This document shows, piece after piece, positions 1,028 to 37,168 of a stretch of 64,000 nt of DNA (positions are counted from its first letter, which is position 1; each line of letters opens with the position of its first letter). The position numbers and the translations under genes are program-made. The stretch is from Parvularculaceae bacterium (GTDB lineage: Bacteria; Pseudomonadota; Alphaproteobacteria; Caulobacterales; Parvularculaceae), in contig JAGRDS010000001.1 in assembly GCA_020446945.1 (NCBI GenBank), positions 37,138 to 101,137 of the forward strand, given 5' to 3'. The notes below the pieces were generated by a model. It was not told the origin of the DNA and ran no database searches. It was given only the letters and a program-made list of their open reading frames with translations.

Positions 1028-2683
1028 CTACTTTTTCTTGAGCAGACCTGCGATGCTGAAGCGCGACTTTTTCGCCGCGCTTTGCGTTCTTCCAAGAACC
1101 ATCGAGGAAAGTTCGCGGATCGCCTGGGCGGTTTTCGTTTTGGCGCCGACTTCGACGATCGGCGATGCGTTCGTCGCCGCCGTATGGAAAAGCTGCGGCT
1201 CCCAGTTGAATACGACCGAGGGTTTCAGCCCGACATGTTCGGCGTATTGCGCCGGCTGAACTGAAGAAAGTTTCGGATCGAACTGGTTGATGACAAGCAG
1301 CGGCGGCGCGTCATTGGGGCGCGCGCCCGATATGATGTCGACAAGGTTCTTCGTGTTGCGGAACGCCGCTAGATCGGCGGTCGCCGTTATTACAATCTGA
1401 TCAGCGGTCTGCAACAGACGTTTCGACCATCCCGTCCAGACGTGCGGCACGTCGATGATAATCGTCGGCGCGGCGCCGCGAACGACATCGATCACCGTCT
1501 CATAGGCCTGATCGTCAACGTCATAGTCCCGATCGAGAAGGTTCGGCGCGGTAAACAGGCTCAAATGATCCGTGTGCTTTTGCAGCAGGCGATCGAGAAG
1601 AACGTCATCGAGACGCTCGGGCGAGCCGAGTGCTTCGATCAGGCCCGAAGTCGGGTCCTGCTCGAAATCGAGGCTGGCCGTTCCAAAAGGAAGGTCGAGG
1701 TCTAGAATAACCGTGTCGCTCTGCAATTCCTCCGCCGCGCACCAGGCGACGTTATGCGCAAGGGTCGAAGACCCTGCGCCGCCGCGTGCGCCGACAAACG
1801 CGATCGTGCGTCCGATCGGCGGCGCAGACGGATCGACATAAAGCGTGGCGATCGACTTGATGATCTGCAACGGCGAGCGCGGGCGGACGATATAGTCGCT
1901 GATCCCCTGGCGCATCAGCTCCCGGTAAAGGCCGATATCGTTGGCGCGCCCGATAATGATGACCTTGGTCGAGGGATCGCAAACCTCGGCGAGTTCGCCG
2001 AGCTGGGCGAAGAGTTCATCGCCGCTGTCGAGCGTTTCGATAATGACGAGGTTCGGCGTCGCTGCATTCTGGAAATGATCGACGGCCTTGGCGAGGCCGC
2101 CCATATGAACCGTCAAATGGGTTTTCGCGAGACGGCGATCGACTGCGGCGCGCTCAAGCAGCACGGTCGTGTCGGGCGTTTCGCAGAAGGCGTGAATGGC
2201 GATGCGCGGCACGGGCCGGTGGTCGTCTTCGCCCTCGCTGAAATCCGCAACGTCGAAAGAAGCGTCGTCGGCGAGCGCAAGCGCCTGGCCGGACGATTCG
2301 TTCGCAGCGGAAGATCGTTCAGATTTGAGTTCATCCCTGGCGGACCTTGCCGGCTCGCTTTCTTTTTCGTTTGCGGCCGGCGCGGCGACATCTTCCGGTT
2401 CGAAGCTGAAATCCTCGGTGTCGGCGAGGTCTTCATCATCGATTTCAAGCGCTTCGGCCAGCAGTTCGTCGTCGAAATCTTCCTCGCCGAGCGCGGCCAG
2501 CTCTTCATCCGAAAGCTCATCTTCCAGCCACGCATCATCTTCGTCGATTTCAGACGCAGACTTGGCGTAGCGGACCTTCTCCGCCATCAGCGGGCCGCCG
2601 TCAGGGCCAAGGCTGGCGGCCGCATGCGCGGCGCCTTCCTCATCGTTTCCGACCTCGAATGCTTCGTTTGAGGACTTCCTCAT
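1028..2683 (-). CDS. cpaE: CpaE/TadZ pilus-localising MinD-like ATPase with long acidic N-terminal extension
   Basis: CpaE/TadZ proteins place the Tad pilus machine, often at a cell pole. Residues 1-155 are strongly acidic and low in complexity, with many Glu/Asp runs. Residues 157-285 look like a receiver-like domain, and 292-530 form a ParA/MinD-type ATPase with a deviant P-loop (ARGGAGSST, 299-307). Arg replaces the signature Lys of MinD, as in many CpaE proteins. The C-terminus is basic (ends LLKKK). At 551 residues it is longer than typical CpaE because of the acidic region. It lies between cpaD and cpaF on the same strand. The ATG at 2683 is in frame and has no nearby competitor that fits better. 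Confidence 0.92.
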   Translation of the reverse strand: MRKSSNEAFEVGNDEEGAAHAAASLGPDGGPLMAEKVRYAKSASEIDEDDAWLEDELSDEELAALGEEDFDDELLAEALEIDDEDLADTEDFSFEPEDVAAPAANEKESEPARSARDELKSERSSAANESSGQALALADDASFDVADFSEGEDDHRPVPRIAIHAFCETPDTTVLLERAAVDRRLAKTHLTVHMGGLAKAVDHFQNAATPNLVIIETLDSGDELFAQLGELAEVCDPSTKVIIIGRANDIGLYRELMRQGISDYIVRPRSPLQIIKSIATLYVDPSAPPIGRTIAFVGARGGAGSSTLAHNVAWCAAEELQSDTVILDLDLPFGTASLDFEQDPTSGLIEALGSPERLDDVLLDRLLQKHTDHLSLFTAPNLLDRDYDVDDQAYETVIDVVRGAAPTIIIDVPHVWTGWSKRLLQTADQIVITATADLAAFRNTKNLVDIISGARPNDAPPLLVINQFDPKLSSVQPAQYAEHVGLKPSVVFNWEPQLFHTAATNASPIVEVGAKTKTAQAIRELSSMVLGRTQSAAKKSRFSIAGLLKKK

Positions 2684-2728
2684 TTCAAACTCCCTCCAGG
2701 CGCGGCGCCTGACCCCGATCTTTCGCTT

Positions 2729-3385
2729 TTACTTGGATACTTGCGTTTCAATTTCGCTGTCTGTTTCGGTCGATGTCACCTCGCCCTTACGGAATTTGGT
2801 GACCTTAAGGATGCGGGTCGCCGCGTCCGGATCCGTCATATCGGCGGGCGCTATCAGATCATGCGGATCGCCGATCATCGCGGCGAGATTGTTCTGGGTC
2901 GCACAGCCGAAATTCGGCGTGCGCATGTTGCGATAGTCGCGCTCGCGCATTCCTTCCCATACGCCGCATGCGCTCGGCGTTGCGACATATCGCGTATAGG
3001 AAAGAATTACATCGCTCGCCGAAGCGCCGTTTCCGCGATAGTCGGCGAGAGCGATCGCCTCGACGGGAACGCCGACGCTGTCAAGCTCGGCGCGAACCGC
3101 ATCAGCCGCGCCTTGCGCATCAGACGGCGCCGTGACGGTCAACGCCCCATGTCCGTTCTGCATATAGGACGAGGCGAATGCGCGCAGGCGCGCCTTGTCT
3201 AGCGCGGTGGCGCCGCCGGCGATCTTTCCCGCGCTGATCGTCATCGTCACCGTCTGGCTGTCGACGGAGATCGGATGCTCTTCCTGGATGGTGAGCGCTT
3301 CGTTCTGGCCGTTAAATCCTGCGGCGCAGCCTGAAAGTGCGGCGAGCGCCGACATCAGGAGAAGCGATTTGAGCGAATTTGTCAT
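2729..3385 (-). CDS. cpaD: CpaD pilus assembly lipoprotein
   Basis: Small outer-membrane-associated component of the Tad secretion channel. The N-terminus is a lipoprotein signal with lipobox LSGC, so Cys20 is the predicted lipidated residue. The remainder (218 residues in all) matches the CpaD layout: an internal SAG-type repeat region, then a Cys-containing C-terminal part with the family-like stretch NFGCATQNNLAAMI. It is 13 bp downstream of cpaC and 45 bp upstream of cpaE, so the three are surely co-transcribed. The assignment rests on position and on this conserved C-terminal segment. Confidence 0.88.
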   Translation of the reverse strand: MTNSLKSLLLMSALAALSGCAAGFNGQNEALTIQEEHPISVDSQTVTMTISAGKIAGGATALDKARLRAFASSYMQNGHGALTVTAPSDAQGAADAVRAELDSVGVPVEAIALADYRGNGASASDVILSYTRYVATPSACGVWEGMRERDYRNMRTPNFGCATQNNLAAMIGDPHDLIAPADMTDPDAATRILKVTKFRKGEVTSTETDSEIETQVSK

Positions 3386-3398
3386 TTGTTGCGTCTCC

Positions 3399-5009
3399 TT
3401 AGTCGAGAATGAAGCCCATCGGTCCCTGCAGCGTCTTTTCTTCGACGCCGGCTCCTGAGAGACCGTAGGTTGCTGCGAGATTTCCCATCAGGATCGTTTG
3501 CGTATCGCTGGCGGCGACAAAGCCTTTAAGCGGGTCGGTCAATTTCGACTCATGCGTCGGATCGACAAGATAGGGCGTGATGATGATGACGAGTTCGGTT
3601 TCCGAGTTCTCGTAATCGCGGCTTCTGAAAAGCTGGCCGAGGACGGCGATATCCTTGAGATAAGGAATTCCCTGTATCGTCTGGCGCATGTTCTCCTGAA
3701 GAAGACCCGCCATGACGAGGCTGCCGCCCGAAGGAAGCTCGACCGTCGTTTTTGCGCGGCGAACCGTCAGCGACGGAATAGTGAGGCCGGACGTTGCAAA
3801 GACTGTCGGCGCGGTGCCCTGAGGGCGGGCCGCCGGCGTGCCGACGAAAGTCGTTCCCGACGCTTCGCCCGCTGCGATAGAAGTTTCGTTGACGACCTGA
3901 TCGGGAACGCCGTCGCCATCCGTATCGACAAGGCGGACCGTGTCCGGCGGCGGCGGCGTACCGGGAATGGTCGTCGACGAGCCGCCGAGCGAGAAGTTGT
4001 TGAGCGAAGAAATCTCGCTGACTTCCGTCGACACCTTGATATTGATCCGGCCCTTGCTCAGCACGAGCGGCGTAAACCCGAGACCGACGCCGAATTCCTT
4101 GAATTCGAGCGAGATAACGCCGTCGCGTTGACCGATCGGGATCGGAAATTCTCCGCCGGCGAGGAAACTCGCGGTCTCGCCCGATACGGCGGTCAGCGTC
4201 GGCTCGGCCAGCGTTTTGACGAGCCCAACCCGCTCAAGCGCCTGGAAAGATACGTTGAAGCCGGAATCGCCGCCGCCGAAGAAGCGTTCAAACGTTCCGG
4301 TGATGCCGGCGCTGGCGCCGGAGGCTATGGTCGAGGCTGTCGCCTCGAATGCTGTGTTCGAAATCGATGTGAAGCCCGACGGATCGACGCCGAGCTGCTT
4401 GATGAGCGAGCGCTGCATTTCGACGACGCGCACTTTCAGCATCACCTGCTCGCGGTCGCGGATCGACACCATGGTGATGACCTTTTCCGGATCGCCGATA
4501 AAGCGACCGGCGATGTCGGCTGCATCCGTCGCCTGAACGCCCGTCGGCACCGTTCCGCGAAGGACTATATTATCATTCACCGCTTCGGCCGTTATGCGCG
4601 CATCCGGCATCAACCGGTTGATGAGATCGGTAAGCGCGTCGAGATCGCGTTCAACCTGGATTTCCAGATTGAGAATCTGCCGGCCGCCGGCGTCGAAGAA
4701 AAAGGCGTTCGTCTGACCGACCTTGAGGCCGAGCAGGTAAACGCGCTTCGGCGAGCGAATGACCGCATCGACGACCGAGGGCTGCGAGACGAGGACGTCG
4801 GAAGCGGCGTTAGGCAATTCGACGATGGCCGCTTTGTCGAGCGGCAGCACGATGGACCTCGACGCCGGGCCGGAGCCGCCGAAATTGATCTTCGCATCCG
4901 ATGCTCGTTGCGCAAACGCAGCGGAAGGCGCGATTGAGGCGAGCGCGAAGGCGAACGCCGCCGCCGCTTTCAAAATCGCCATCCGTTTGGTGTCTGTTTC
5001 AAAACGCAT
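3399..5009 (-). CDS. cpaC: CpaC/RcpA secretin of the Tad pilus, with a Ca-binding-like insertion
   Basis: Outer-membrane channel through which the Flp pilus is extruded. A signal peptide (cleavage near AAFAQ, residue 34) precedes a pilus-assembly N-domain (50-125), a BON-like segment (125-190) and the secretin core (about 255-490) with the motif TLTAVSGETASFLAGGEFPI. An extra loop of about 65 residues (341-408) interrupts the core. It contains DTDGDGVPD (362-370), the DxDxDG form of a calcium-binding loop, flanked by Pro/Thr/Gly-rich sequence. Length is 536 residues. It lies 23 bp downstream of cpaB. ATG 5009 is used; an in-frame ATG nine codons later would leave a shorter signal peptide. Confidence 0.94.
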   Translation of the reverse strand: MRFETDTKRMAILKAAAAFAFALASIAPSAAFAQRASDAKINFGGSGPASRSIVLPLDKAAIVELPNAASDVLVSQPSVVDAVIRSPKRVYLLGLKVGQTNAFFFDAGGRQILNLEIQVERDLDALTDLINRLMPDARITAEAVNDNIVLRGTVPTGVQATDAADIAGRFIGDPEKVITMVSIRDREQVMLKVRVVEMQRSLIKQLGVDPSGFTSISNTAFEATASTIASGASAGITGTFERFFGGGDSGFNVSFQALERVGLVKTLAEPTLTAVSGETASFLAGGEFPIPIGQRDGVISLEFKEFGVGLGFTPLVLSKGRINIKVSTEVSEISSLNNFSLGGSSTTIPGTPPPPDTVRLVDTDGDGVPDQVVNETSIAAGEASGTTFVGTPAARPQGTAPTVFATSGLTIPSLTVRRAKTTVELPSGGSLVMAGLLQENMRQTIQGIPYLKDIAVLGQLFRSRDYENSETELVIIITPYLVDPTHESKLTDPLKGFVAASDTQTILMGNLAATYGLSGAGVEEKTLQGPMGFILD

Positions 5010-5032
5010 TGTTCTTACCCCTGAACGATCGG

Positions 5033-5776
5033 CTATGAGCGGCCGTAACGAATGACTTTTACGCTCTGGTCGCGGCGCTGTTTGACCGCGCCGGCTTCAT
5101 CGTTGAAGACGCTTCTTAAGGCGAAACTCATCTGCCCGCGCGATGCGCGCGTGTTGATGAAGAATTCGGCATCTTCCGGCGACAATTCGACTGTCGCGTT
5201 CGCGCCCTCAATCACCGGCGATTCCGGATTTTCCGAATAGACCGTGTTGATCGCGAGGATGCGCACATCCTCGAAAAGGATATCCGTCGCCGTGCGGTTG
5301 GCGGCGTTGGCTTCCGAATAGTAAATATCGACGCGATCGCCCGGCAAAACGAAACCCGAAACGCCGGTTTCAGGCGTGATGCGCATGGTCACGGCGCGCA
5401 TTCCAGGTTCCAGCACGGCCGCCAGCAGGCCCGATGACCCAGCGCGAACGATCTTCGCCTCGACGATAGGTTCGTTGGCGACGATAGACGAGCGGGCGAC
5501 TGCTTTTTCCAGTTCGGCAGGATCTCCGCCGGCGGCTTCCGTGATGTAGGCCTCCGACATCGCCTTTTCCGGCCACTCTTCCCAGCGCACGGCGTCAGCC
5601 GTCAATCTCTCGCCGCGTTGAAAGTCGCGGTCAGCAACAAGTATGCGAACGGTCTTTTCGCGTTCGGGCTGGACGACCTGAACAGGCTGATTGCTATTCC
5701 CGTTCATCATCATGAGAAAGGCGCCGGCGCCGGCAACAAGCGCTACGCCGAGAACCGCAATTCGCGTTACATTCAT
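5033..5776 (-). CDS. cpaB: CpaB/RcpC pilus assembly protein
   Basis: Periplasmic, inner-membrane-anchored partner of the secretin in Tad pilus assembly. One N-terminal transmembrane segment (about residues 5-24, with a Met-Met-Met run) precedes an SAF domain (about 44-110) and the RcpC/CpaB domain with the segment RAVTMRITPETGVSGFVLPG (about 127-146). This is the usual domain order, and 247 residues is slightly short but complete. It follows cpaA after a 92 bp gap that holds two TTAAC half-sites (5856 and 5869), so a secondary promoter is possible. Confidence 0.92.
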   Translation of the reverse strand: MNVTRIAVLGVALVAGAGAFLMMMNGNSNQPVQVVQPEREKTVRILVADRDFQRGERLTADAVRWEEWPEKAMSEAYITEAAGGDPAELEKAVARSSIVANEPIVEAKIVRAGSSGLLAAVLEPGMRAVTMRITPETGVSGFVLPGDRVDIYYSEANAANRTATDILFEDVRILAINTVYSENPESPVIEGANATVELSPEDAEFFINTRASRGQMSFALRSVFNDEAGAVKQRRDQSVKVIRYGRS

Positions 5777-5868
5777 GGTTTCACTCGCCCTTTCAAAGGC
5801 CTTTTACGCCTGGAAACTCAGTAAATTCTTGTAAGGAGAAGTCCTCAAAACTCTGTTAACTGATCTCA

Positions 5869-6375
5869 TTAACCGCCAAAGGCCAATTGGAAGAACGGTG
5901 TTTGCGAAAAGCTAAGAAGTCCGCCGATCGCGATTGCGACCGCATACGGAATATCTTTGGGACGCTGATGAAGGCGCAGTAACCATGGCGCATGCGCATA
6001 GACGGGCAGCGCCGGGGTTTTGCGGAACATGATAAGAACGATCGCGAACGCGCCGCCAGCGAAAGCCGTATTAACGAGAAAAGGTGCGAGCGCCGACGGC
6101 CCTATCCAGGGCGCGCATGCGGCGATCAGCTTGGCGTCGCCGCCGCCAAGGATTTTGCCGGCGAACAAAGCGAATCCAACGACAAGCGCCGCGCATGCGA
6201 ACAGAAAACCTTCAAGCATCTGCGCCGGCGACGCGCCAAGTCCGAAGCCGGCGATGAAATAGGAGCAGAACAGGACGATCGAAACCCAGTTCGGGATTTT
6301 GTATTCGTATAAATCGTTCATTGCGGCGATGATCAAAGCCGCAGGAAATGCTGAAAGGAAAACCAGTGGTATCAC
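5869..6375 (-). CDS. cpaA: CpaA/TadV prepilin peptidase (A24 family)
   Basis: Inner-membrane aspartyl protease that removes the leader of the Flp prepilin. The 168-residue protein is nearly all hydrophobic helices. The two catalytic aspartates expected in the family are visible: Asp21 in a D-x6-PN context (DLYEYKIPNW) and Asp80 in the GxGD motif (GGGDAKL). It lacks the N-terminal methylase domain of PilD, as usual for TadV/CpaA. The gene follows the pilin gene after a terminator-like hairpin, so it may need its own promoter. A near-CtrA box lies at 6424-6438, 49-63 bp upstream of its start. Confidence 0.92.
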   Translation of the reverse strand: MIPLVFLSAFPAALIIAAMNDLYEYKIPNWVSIVLFCSYFIAGFGLGASPAQMLEGFLFACAALVVGFALFAGKILGGGDAKLIAACAPWIGPSALAPFLVNTAFAGGAFAIVLIMFRKTPALPVYAHAPWLLRLHQRPKDIPYAVAIAIGGLLSFSQTPFFQLAFGG

Positions 6376-6423
6376 GCTCGCCCGCTCCAGAGTGCTGAAT
6401 ATCGCAAAGCTAGGCGGCGGCGC

Positions 6424-6438
6424 TTAACATTCAGTTAG
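6424..6438. promoter_or_regulatory. near-consensus CtrA box upstream of cpaA
   Basis: TTAA-N7-TTAG, seven of the eight fixed bases of the CtrA consensus TTAA-N7-TTAA. It lies 49-63 bp upstream of the cpaA start, where an activator site for the cpaABCDEF transcript would be expected. CtrA control of pilus genes is established in Caulobacter. Its action here is inferred from sequence alone. Confidence 0.5.
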
Positions 6439-6503
6439 ACATAAGTTCGGTTTGAATCATATCGGCCGACGGCCGGGTCATAAAAGGATTGAGACGCAAA
6501 AAG

Positions 6504-6527
6504 AAAAGGAGGCCGAAGCCTCCTTTT
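6504..6527 (-). terminator. intrinsic terminator after the pilin gene
   Basis: Read on the minus strand this is a 10-bp stem (AAAAGGAGGC / GCCTCCTTTT) closed by a stable TTCG loop and followed by CTTTTTG. It lies 25 bp past the pilin stop codon. It would end most pilin transcripts before cpaA, which explains how pilin can be made in excess of the assembly proteins. Confidence 0.85.
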
Positions 6528-6551
6528 CCAAGTCCCGCTTGCAGAACCCTG

Positions 6552-6722
6552 TTAGCGGTTCTTCAATTCGCTTTCGACATCCGAGAACGTCGCGGAAAGC
6601 TCGCCGCCGACAGCACGAACCGCCGTGATGATGGCGACCGCGATAAGCGCCGCGATGAGGCCGTATTCAATGGCCGTCGCGCCGTCTTCGTCTTTGATGA
6701 ACTTGTTGATAAGAGCTTTCAT
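6552..6722 (-). CDS. pilA: Flp family type IVb pilin
   Basis: Major subunit of the Flp/Tad pilus, 56 residues (ATG 6722, TAA 6552-6554). A short charged leader (MKALINKFIKDEDG) ends in Gly at residue 14. The mature part begins ATAIEYGLIAAL, the invariant Glu-Tyr pair of Flp pilins within the hydrophobic assembly helix. The CpaA peptidase encoded next door should cleave after Gly14. The gene is first in the cpa cluster and is separated from cpaA by a strong terminator. Its 164-bp upstream region is AT-rich and carries two TTAA-N7-TGAA near-CtrA motifs. Confidence 0.95.
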   Translation of the reverse strand: MKALINKFIKDEDGATAIEYGLIAALIAVAIITAVRAVGGELSATFSDVESELKNR

Positions 6723-7606: not shown

Positions 7607-7700
7607 TTATTTCTCCTGCAGCGATATTCGTCGTCTACTCTTTAAAGCGTGGTAAAAAATAAAATTTTCACGAAATCGAATGAATGCTGGCGCCATTGCA

Positions 7701-7715
7701 TTAAAACCCGCTTAA
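7701..7715. promoter_or_regulatory. perfect CtrA box upstream of the secretin-N-domain gene
   Basis: Exact TTAA-N7-TTAA with spacer AACCCGC, ending 58 bp before the ATG at 7774. The position suits activation of the plus-strand gene, and the site is also within range of the divergent Crp/Fnr gene. Confidence 0.65.
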
Positions 7716-7773: not shown

Positions 7774-8223
7774 ATGCGTTTATTTTCACTTTCCCTTTCA
7801 GTCGCCTGCCTGTTCGCGTCGGCCGCTTCCGCCGAACAGGTCTGGGTGACGATGGATCAGGTCCAGCCCTATACGTTCAAACAGGAAGTCGACCAGATCG
7901 TCATAGGCAATCCCGGGATCGCCGACATCACGGTGCGTGACAAATCGCGTGTGCTTCTGTTCGGCAAGGCGCCTGGCCTGACAAACATGTTTTTGTTCGA
8001 CGCCGAAGGCAACGAGATTGACAATCTCATCGTCCGGGTGCGCGCTACGAATTCGGATTTGCTCACGCTTCAACGCGGCGGCCAGCGCTACACCTACAAC
8101 TGCACCAGCGTTTGCGAGCAAACGCTGACGATCGGCGACGCGCAGGAAGCTTTCGGCGCCATTTCGGCGCAAACGGCCGGAAAGTTCCAGCAGGCGTCAA
8201 GCGCCGGCGCGCCTTCTGAATAA
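7774..8223 (+). CDS. stand-alone pilus-assembly/secretin N-terminal domain protein
   Basis: Secreted 149-residue protein: a signal peptide (cleavage near ASAEQ, residue 20) followed by one domain (21-92) resembling the N-domain at the start of CpaC. Shared features include the strand pattern with VIGNPGIADITVRDKSRVLL and GLTNMFLFDAEGNEI; CpaC has the matching GQTNAFFFDAGGRQI. It has no channel-forming secretin core. Two cysteines (110 and 114) in a YNCTSVCEQ segment could form a periplasmic disulfide. It is divergent from the Crp/Fnr gene, preceded by a perfect CtrA box and closed by a terminator at 8250. A role as an accessory to the Tad secretin is inferred. Confidence 0.85.
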   Translation: MRLFSLSLSVACLFASAASAEQVWVTMDQVQPYTFKQEVDQIVIGNPGIADITVRDKSRVLLFGKAPGLTNMFLFDAEGNEIDNLIVRVRATNSDLLTLQRGGQRYTYNCTSVCEQTLTIGDAQEAFGAISAQTAGKFQQASSAGAPSE

Positions 8224-8249: not shown

Positions 8250-8276
8250 GGCCCTCTCGCGAGGGCCTTTATTTTT
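8250..8276 (+). terminator. intrinsic terminator between converging genes
   Basis: A 7-bp stem (GGCCCTC / GAGGGCC) with a TCGC loop, followed by TTTATTTTT on the plus strand. It ends the secretin-N-domain gene and abuts the stop codon of the converging ANL gene, so it may act in both directions. Confidence 0.8.
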
Positions 8277-17419: not shown

Positions 17420-17434
17420 TTAACCATGTTTTAA
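17420..17434. promoter_or_regulatory. perfect CtrA box upstream of the TonB-dependent receptor
   Basis: TTAA-CCATGTT-TTAA is an exact TTAA-N7-TTAA match and also contains the extended half-site TTAACCAT typical of Caulobacter CtrA targets. It lies 201 bp before the TTG start of the receptor gene. Confidence 0.7.
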
Positions 17435-17449
17435 GGCCTGTGGCAGGAA

Positions 17450-35791: not shown

Positions 35792-37168
35792 CTATTTCCT
35801 GCGCCAGCTCGCGCCATGCGGTCCGTCTTCGATGACGATCCCCTGCGCGGCGAGAGCGTCGCGAATACGGTCCGATTTTGCAAAATCTTTCGCCTTTCGC
35901 GCGGCCGCGCGTTCTGCAAGCTGGCGCTCGATTTCCTCAGCGCCTGGCGAATCGCCTTGCGATTGCGGCGTCCATTTGAACCAGTCTTCCGGCTGATGCG
36001 CGAACAATCCCATCAACTCGCCGGCCGCCTTCAGGCGCGACGCGGCGCGCATGCGCGGCGCGCCCTCGAGCTGCATGGCGATATCGCGCAATTCATGCAG
36101 TCCGGCGATCGCTTCAGGCGTATTCATGTCGTCTTCAAGCGCAATAACAACACTTTCGGGAATTTCCGTCGGCTCGCCGGGACCAGTCTCCGCAAGGAGG
36201 CGGTAAAACTTGTCCAACTGCTTTTTCGATTGTTCGATCAGCGTGTCAGTCCATTCAAGCGGCTGGCGGTACTGCGCGGAAAGCAGCGCAAAGCGAAGCG
36301 TTTCGCCATGATGCTTTTTCAACAGATCGCGCGGCAACGCGACGTTGCCGAGAGACTTCGACATCTTGTCCGCGCCCATGCGCAAAAACCCGTTGTGCAG
36401 CCAATACCGCGCCAGCGGGGCGCCGGCGTGTGCGCAATTCGATTGCGCGATTTCATTTTCATGATGAGGAAAGCGCAAATCCTGTCCGCCGCCGTGTATG
36501 TCGATCGTTTCTCCGAGCGCTTTTTCGATCATCGCCGAGCATTCAAGGTGCCAGCCGGGCCGGCCGCGGCCCCACGGGCTCTCCCATCCGGGCTCGGCCT
36601 CGTTCGATGGTTTCCAGAGTACGAAATCGGCCGGGTCTTTTTTGTAAGGCGCCACTTCTACCCGCGCGCCGGCGAGGCGTTCTTCGGCATCGGCGCCGGA
36701 AAGCTTTCCGTAGCCGTCGAATTGCGCGACGGAAAACAGAACGTGCCCCTGCGCCGGATAGGCGAAGCCGAGCGATACGAGACGCTCAATAAGGGAAATC
36801 ATCTCCGCAATGTGTCCGGTCGCCGCCGGCGTCAGCGTCGGCGTCAGGCAATTGAACGCGGCGAGTTCCTCGGAATAAATGCGCGCATATTTTTCCGTAA
36901 TCTCGGCGATTGGCTGGCCGGATTCCTGCGATGCCTTTATGATCTTGTCGTCAATGTCAGTGAAATTGCGCGCGTAGACGACGGCGCTTTCGCCGTAACG
37001 CCGGCGCAACAGCCGAAAGAGGAGATCGAAGACGACTGCGGCGCGAAAATTGCCGATATGCGCATGATTATAGACCGTCGGTCCGCAGACATACATCGTC
37101 ACGCGGGACTCATCGCCCGGTGTGAAAAGGCGCGTTTCGCGCGAAAGACTATCGTAAAGCCGGAGCAT
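35792..37168 (-). CDS. cysS: cysteinyl-tRNA synthetase
   Basis: Charges tRNA-Cys with cysteine. A class I synthetase of 458 residues: zinc-ligand Cys28 in YVCGPTVYNHAHIGN, the HIGH motif as HIGN (37-40), and the KMSKS loop in DKMSKSLGN (near residue 270). The C-terminal helical DALR-like anticodon part is complete. The upstream gene on the same strand is DUF2270, 128 bp away. DUF389 follows with two bases between them. Confidence 0.97.
   Translation of the reverse strand: MLRLYDSLSRETRLFTPGDESRVTMYVCGPTVYNHAHIGNFRAAVVFDLLFRLLRRRYGESAVVYARNFTDIDDKIIKASQESGQPIAEITEKYARIYSEELAAFNCLTPTLTPAATGHIAEMISLIERLVSLGFAYPAQGHVLFSVAQFDGYGKLSGADAEERLAGARVEVAPYKKDPADFVLWKPSNEAEPGWESPWGRGRPGWHLECSAMIEKALGETIDIHGGGQDLRFPHHENEIAQSNCAHAGAPLARYWLHNGFLRMGADKMSKSLGNVALPRDLLKKHHGETLRFALLSAQYRQPLEWTDTLIEQSKKQLDKFYRLLAETGPGEPTEIPESVVIALEDDMNTPEAIAGLHELRDIAMQLEGAPRMRAASRLKAAGELMGLFAHQPEDWFKWTPQSQGDSPGAEEIERQLAERAAARKAKDFAKSDRIRDALAAQGIVIEDGPHGASWRRK

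Follow-up and report, generated by a model that had tools for sequence, protein, structure and literature searches.

What does a secretin N-domain do when it is encoded as a small protein of its own at a Tad pilus locus? The question is raised by an open reading frame of a Parvularculaceae bacterium (assembly GCA_020446945.1, contig JAGRDS010000001.1), of which we analysed positions 37,138 to 101,137 of the forward strand, a stretch of 64,000 nt referred to below as the window. An earlier note on this DNA had associated the protein with the secretin CpaC, proposing that it may cap, nucleate or compete with it. The association agrees with our results, since the product is a stand-alone CpaC-type N-domain protein encoded at a Tad locus and is a homologue of CpaI, a known protein. 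As to its role, we put at roughly 0.78 the probability that CpaI is a periplasmic bridge of the alphaproteobacterial Tad pilus machine, equipped with a socket, a plug and a probable disulfide.

The protein and its locus

The features of the locus are as follows.
1028–2683, minus strand: cpaE (best matches of ParA/MinD type, below curated cut-offs; assigned by operon position)
2729–3385, minus strand: cpaD, lipoprotein
3399–5009, minus strand: cpaC, secretin (PF00263 and PF13629)
4650–4862, minus strand: CpaC N-domain, residues 50–120 (Pfam), presumed partner of the CpaI plug
5033–5776, minus strand: cpaB (RcpC), presumed inner-membrane partner
5036–5065, minus strand: C-terminal tail of CpaB with an R-Y-G turn, residues 238–247, presumed to dock on CpaI (docking from PMC13170226)
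5869–6375, minus strand: cpaA, prepilin peptidase (PF01478)
6552–6722, minus strand: pilA, Flp-type pilin of 56 aa
6887–7606, minus strand: Crp/Fnr-like gene between pilA and cpaI (cNMP-binding domain above, HTH match below cut-off)
7774–8223, plus strand: cpaI homologue, 149 aa, ATG start, stand-alone PF13629 protein
7774–7833, plus strand: signal peptide, residues 1–20, signal peptidase I type, read by eye (MRLFSLSLSVACLFASAASA-EQ)
8250–8276, plus strand: hairpin and T run resembling an intrinsic terminator (z = −2.59 over a 67-nt stretch)

The Tad operon (cpaE, cpaD, cpaC, cpaB, cpaA, pilA) occupies 1028–6722 on the minus strand, and cpaF and two tadB/tadC-type genes lie beyond cpaE, reaching just outside the window. 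The only Pfam domain of the 149-aa product is PF13629 (T2SS-T3SS_pil_N) at residues 20–89 (E-value = 1.5e−19; 69.9 bits against a cut-off of 23), the same domain that is found, together with the secretin domain, at residues 50–120 of CpaC from the window. The earlier statement that the protein matches CpaC in the N-terminal domain only, over about 70 residues, is thus correct, as is the statement that it cannot form a pore, because the Pfam search detected no PF00263 channel domain in it. A single PF13629 domain is likewise present in all 48 aligned relatives, and the genome itself encodes exactly two PF13629 proteins above the cut-off, the CpaI homologue and CpaC. Searches of NCBIfam (0 named families) and PADLOC provided no name for the protein, and its nearest named relative comes from a Parvularculaceae bacterium (89% identity). 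The signal peptide, also claimed earlier, is recognizable by eye, and its AxA motif is largely kept in the aligned relatives (A18 in 47 and A20 in 50 of 56 rows), so that export to the periplasm is predicted. A lipobox at Cys12 of the signal peptide was considered and dropped: relatives lack Cys12, and the mature rows hold two cysteines.

The features of the protein correspond to those of CpaI from Caulobacter crescentus, described as a small periplasmic protein of the cpa locus with an N-domain of the CpaC/RcpA type and a C-terminal three-strand sheet; Caulobacter CpaI was matched by this description, and the sequence link goes via homologues from Sinorhizobium meliloti. According to PMC13170226, Caulobacter CpaI is needed for pilus biosynthesis and was modelled as a bridge from the secretin CpaC to the ring protein CpaB, connecting both membranes. 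In S. meliloti, CpaI-like proteins (smc04115 and sma1580) are encoded upstream of pilA1 and of cpaA2 (PMC10934763). The copy on a plasmid of S. meliloti GR4, a strain with CpaI homologues described in that paper, shares 33% identity with the window protein, contains the C-x3-C motif discussed below and adjoins cpaA and cpaB.

Gene order supports the assignment. An upstream pilA on the opposite strand accompanies cpaI in 51 of 55 loci of the order, the upstream sequence being shorter than 820 bases in two of the four remaining loci, and in 78 of the 80 named loci, some of which share contigs with order loci, so that the two counts overlap. Hence, cpaI is divergent from pilA-cpaABCDE across Alphaproteobacteria. 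On a plasmid of Xanthobacter dioxanivorans (L141, 51 kb) the annotation places cpaD, cpaB, a prepilin peptidase gene and two small genes on one strand, with a cpaI-type gene and two TadE-type genes divergent to the cpa genes; BLAST located cpaC between cpaD and cpaB. The window differs from Caulobacter in that the Crp-like gene parts cpaI from pilA. It also differs from S. meliloti, where the chromosomal cpaI adjoins cpaJ and cpaK homologues (PMC10934763), whereas here cpaI is followed by the terminator-like hairpin and by an unrelated gene in opposite orientation. Because of this hairpin and T run, cpaI is probably monocistronic.

Predicted fold and the cysteine pair

We modelled the fold of the CpaI homologue from an alignment of 48 sequences (mean pLDDT 87.7, pTM 0.59). 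The model and the conservation define the following parts.
7837–8046, plus strand: the socket, a CpaC-like N-domain beta-sandwich, residues 22–91 (Pfam, model and fold comparison)
8059–8124, plus strand: the plug, three C-terminal strands at residues 96–101, 104–110 and 114–117 (model; role from PMC13170226)
8101–8103, plus strand: codon of Cys110, at the end of the second plug strand (sequence, conservation and model)
8113–8115, plus strand: codon of Cys114, at the start of the third plug strand (sequence, conservation and model)

In the model the N-domain strands fall inside residues 22–90, and a helix (residues 124–144) follows the plug strands. The C-terminal 60 residues are therefore not featureless, since they include a conserved three-strand region carrying both cysteines. 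A beta-sandwich followed by a three-strand sheet, whose antiparallel order we deduce from the short hairpin loops, is also the composition reported for Caulobacter CpaI (PMC13170226).

Among solved structures the best sequence match to CpaI is the N-domain of RcpA, the Tad secretin of Pseudomonas aeruginosa (E-value = 0.0031; PDB 8odn; PMC10499894, PMC12307814). In RcpA this domain belongs to the secretin itself and was modelled as taking the hairpin of RcpC directly, whereas CpaI is a separate protein with a plug of its own. A VirB9-like fold was reported for the RcpA N-domain (PMC10499894), and fold comparison gives the same likeness for CpaI: the matches of the model are VirB9-type domains and other Ig-like sandwiches, such as a secretion-system protein of Acidithiobacillus caldus (Z = 7.4, 65 residues, rmsd 1.8) and the VirB9 N-terminal domain of type IV secretion, which has the same beta-sandwich (TrwF/VirB9, 8rt6; Z = 8.8, 74 residues, rmsd 2.6), a likeness in fold, with a Z-score of a size common for Ig-like sandwiches. 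Foldseek matches to CD2 and further Ig-like proteins were read as reflecting just the common fold.

The two cysteines pointed out in the earlier note are indeed present, and both are invariant in all 56 aligned proteins of the order. The C-x3-C motif occurs in 80 of 80 named loci, and beyond residue 25 the proteins have exactly two cysteines in 56/56 order rows and 79/80 named-locus rows; CpaC of the window is devoid of cysteines over its whole length. In the model the pair flanks a three-residue loop between the last two strands. Most likely, Cys110 and Cys114 form a disulfide, which would stiffen the plug hairpin. The invariance of both residues and their fixed spacing would also suit a redox switch or a metal site, yet we regard this as a quite improbable function of the pair, given that the short interstrand loop of the model is a likely site for a structural clamp, that the mature part offers exactly two cysteines in nearly every row, and that histidine is absent from the invariant alignment columns. 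PMC13170226 does not contain the word 'disulfide', and the three uses of 'cysteine' there concern labelled pilin. Judging by a limited literature search, the invariant cysteine pair in a part that probably grips the secretin is new.

Upstream region and distribution of CpaI

Regulated use had been proposed earlier from an exact CtrA box and a divergent Crp/Fnr-type regulator. The upstream region contains the following boxes.
7642–7656, minus strand: second conserved CtrA-like box, TTTA-N7-TTAA, before the Crp-like gene
7701–7715, plus strand: exact TTAA-N7-TTAA box, TTAAAACCCGCTTAA
7712–7726, plus strand: conserved CtrA-like box, TTAA-N7-TTGA, 62 bases before the ATG

The exact box is present, but only one of 55 relatives (L005) has an exact one upstream of cpaI. 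The conserved site is instead the overlapping TTAA-N7-TTGA box, which shares the 3′ half of the exact one. All 33 family loci have it, 58–84 bases ahead of the cpaI start, whereas 0.0009 per 120 bases would be expected by chance (a single occurrence in 132,897 bases). Beyond the family it was not detected in most loci. The second box recurs in 28 of the 33 loci of the family, compared with 0.0045 expected by chance per 145 bases. The idea of regulated use is partly borne out, in that a CtrA-like box is conserved, though not the one originally named. The window has two exact TTAA-N7-TTAA boxes; the other, at 17420, stands just before an open reading frame at 17440 that by eye resembles a TonB-dependent receptor.

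We also considered reading the TTGA half of the conserved TTAA-N7-TTGA box as a −35 element. The distance to a conserved TA-containing stretch downstream is about 9–11 bases, which is too short for a sigma-70 promoter, and for this reason a CtrA-type site is preferred. A tight promoter-like pattern had no match in the genome of the bacterium and was dropped. The genome encodes a CtrA-like protein that scores 302 bits with the Rhodobacterales CtrA model, below the cut-off of 350. In the assembly the gene (L155, contig 28, 254000–255400) is broken into two frames by a run of N. Judging by the boxes, cpaI is likely under CtrA control. The Crp-like gene is divergent from cpaI and has a cNMP-binding domain, but its HTH match does not reach the cut-off. 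Of the 33 family loci, 32 have this gene between pilA and cpaI, against none of the 22 other loci of the order and none of 64 named loci (L076–L139), so that among the loci examined it is limited to Parvularculaceae.

We assessed the distribution of CpaI in 61 genomes, consisting of the genome studied here and 60 relatives. CpaI-type matches and CpaB are each present in 56 of them: both proteins in 55 genomes, neither in four, CpaI only in one (G003, a fragmented assembly of 470 contigs, 81% complete) and CpaB only in one (G054), so that 59 of the 61 genomes have both or neither. Across the phylum, CpaB was detected in 31 of 90 genomes. A stand-alone PF13629 protein, called by open-frame length, accompanies it in 14 of 21 genomes of the same class, which include the genome studied here and others of its order, and in 0 of 10 genomes outside the class.

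Within the relatives' set, CpaB gives a second full match in twelve genomes. No stand-alone CpaI copy was found in any of the 13 fetched stretches of 8.6–15 kb, comprising the 12 second loci and the locus of G054. The 12 second Tad loci (L142–L153) encode CpaB and CpaC and have no stand-alone CpaI nearby. Tad machines that have the CpaI bridge thus seem to coexist in one genome with others that lack it.

CpaB tails and the proposed bridge

AlphaFold3 models and cryo-tomography of the Caulobacter machine place the C-terminal three-strand sheet of CpaI against the CpaC N-domain and the CpaB hairpin against the N-terminal sandwich of CpaI (PMC13170226). In Pseudomonas the C-terminal hairpin of RcpC was modelled as completing the sheet of the RcpA N-domain; the hairpin is needed for function, while a hairpin-less construct still co-purified with the RcpA N-domain (PMC12307814). 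In view of this model and of the need for the hairpin, we compared the CpaB tails of systems with and without CpaI.

The set with CpaI includes 93 loci that have cpaB and cpaC beside cpaI, 11 loci from the phylum search (in three of these cpaI is on another contig, in one about 170 kb away) and the window, which after removal of duplicates gave 103 distinct CpaB sequences. The set without CpaI has 32 rows, namely, the 13 loci lacking a stand-alone match within 8.6–15 kb and 19 assigned from the phylum search, 30 of whose 45 rows had loci and were used. With a strict pattern, the tail turn is R-x-G in 93 of 103 CpaB sequences with CpaI, RGG in eight and neither in two, compared with [RK]G in 21, neither in 11 and R-x-G in none of the 32 rows without it; the motif was set post hoc, after viewing the sequences, and the rows are related by descent. 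When the pattern is relaxed, the former set has 85 R-x-G, eight RGG, eight x-G and two tails without a motif, and the latter 30 x-G and two without a motif; some of the eight x-G tails, IYRNG for example, are compatible with both readings. CpaB tails therefore differ between loci with and without CpaI, and the post hoc motif provides a new signature separating the two kinds of Tad machine. Tail length was considered and set aside in favor of the turn motif, because as the sole mark of CpaI-less systems a long tail fails (medians of 8 versus 23 residues, with overlapping lengths). CpaB of the window ends two residues past R-Y-G, which makes a full hairpin doubtful in this protein.

The plugs of CpaI were examined in the same way. 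Among 123 plugs, 78 have RG, nine R-x-G, 15 both and 21 none, and RG or KG is found at a fixed place in 94. When scored with a profile of the CpaI plugs, CpaB tails of systems without CpaI are only slightly higher (median 0.7 versus −0.4 bits, p = 0.003). Mixed as the plug motifs are, these patterns are consistent with CpaI combining a CpaC-like socket with a plug of the CpaB type. Partial distance correlations link the CpaI plug with the CpaC N-domain at 0.385 given the secretin domain and at 0.355 given the CpaB body, the highest among the inter-protein pairs computed. For the CpaB tail the outcome depends on the control: given the secretin domain it correlates better with the CpaI socket (0.283) than with the CpaC N-domain (0.176), whereas given the CpaB body the order is reversed (0.187 versus 0.227).

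Taken together, the published models and the comparisons above are consistent with the following arrangement, which we carry over to this Parvularculaceae bacterium by analogy. CpaI would be secreted to the periplasm, where its N-domain, related to that of CpaC/RcpA, would serve as the socket taking the C-terminal hairpin of CpaB. Its three-strand sheet, stiffened by the putative Cys110–Cys114 disulfide, would be the plug, docking on the CpaC N-domain by adding strands to its sheet. The joint made once in CpaI-less systems, by the RcpC hairpin on the RcpA N-domain, would then be repeated in series.

Alternatively, CpaI might bind only CpaC, capping the secretin ring or aiding its assembly and stability, with no bridge to CpaB. 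The N-domain type common to CpaI and CpaC would suit such a role, as would the plug and the CpaC N-domain having the highest inter-protein partial correlation. We nevertheless consider it unlikely, because the CpaB tails differ between loci with and without CpaI and because deletion of cpaI reportedly leaves the secretins in place while the alignment subcomplex is gone (Maggi et al., preprint, as cited in PMC13170226), a loss of the bridge rather than of the secretin. The least tenable alternative is that CpaI is a regulated competitor of CpaC limiting pilus production: the separate upstream region with its CtrA-like boxes and the divergent cNMP-domain gene could serve such regulation, but pili are lost on cpaI deletion in Caulobacter (PMC13170226) and CpaI is kept, along with CpaB, in 56 of 61 genomes, which makes competition very improbable. 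The same pattern of presence fits an optional cap poorly, and since Caulobacter CpaI is required for piliation and was modelled as a bridge, the earlier suggestion of capping, nucleation or competition is unsupported, and the periplasmic bridge is preferred.

More tentatively, and at somewhat less than even odds, the bridge may be a modular spacer assembled from a duplicated CpaC socket and a CpaB-like plug locked by the invariant disulfide, with the same strand-addition joint occurring twice in series. The turn of the CpaB tail would then have changed by one residue, from R-G to R-x-G, on moving from the CpaC socket to that of CpaI. If so, the presence of the extra bridge in a Tad machine could be told from CpaB alone, by a code readable in its sequence. 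As CpaI was already known, the finding is mostly an ordinary one, and the structural addition is modest but testable: with the cysteine pair in the part presumed to hold the secretin, the published docking model can be tested by two point mutations. Together, the cysteine pair and the CpaB signature may hint at how an extra layer entered a trans-envelope machine.
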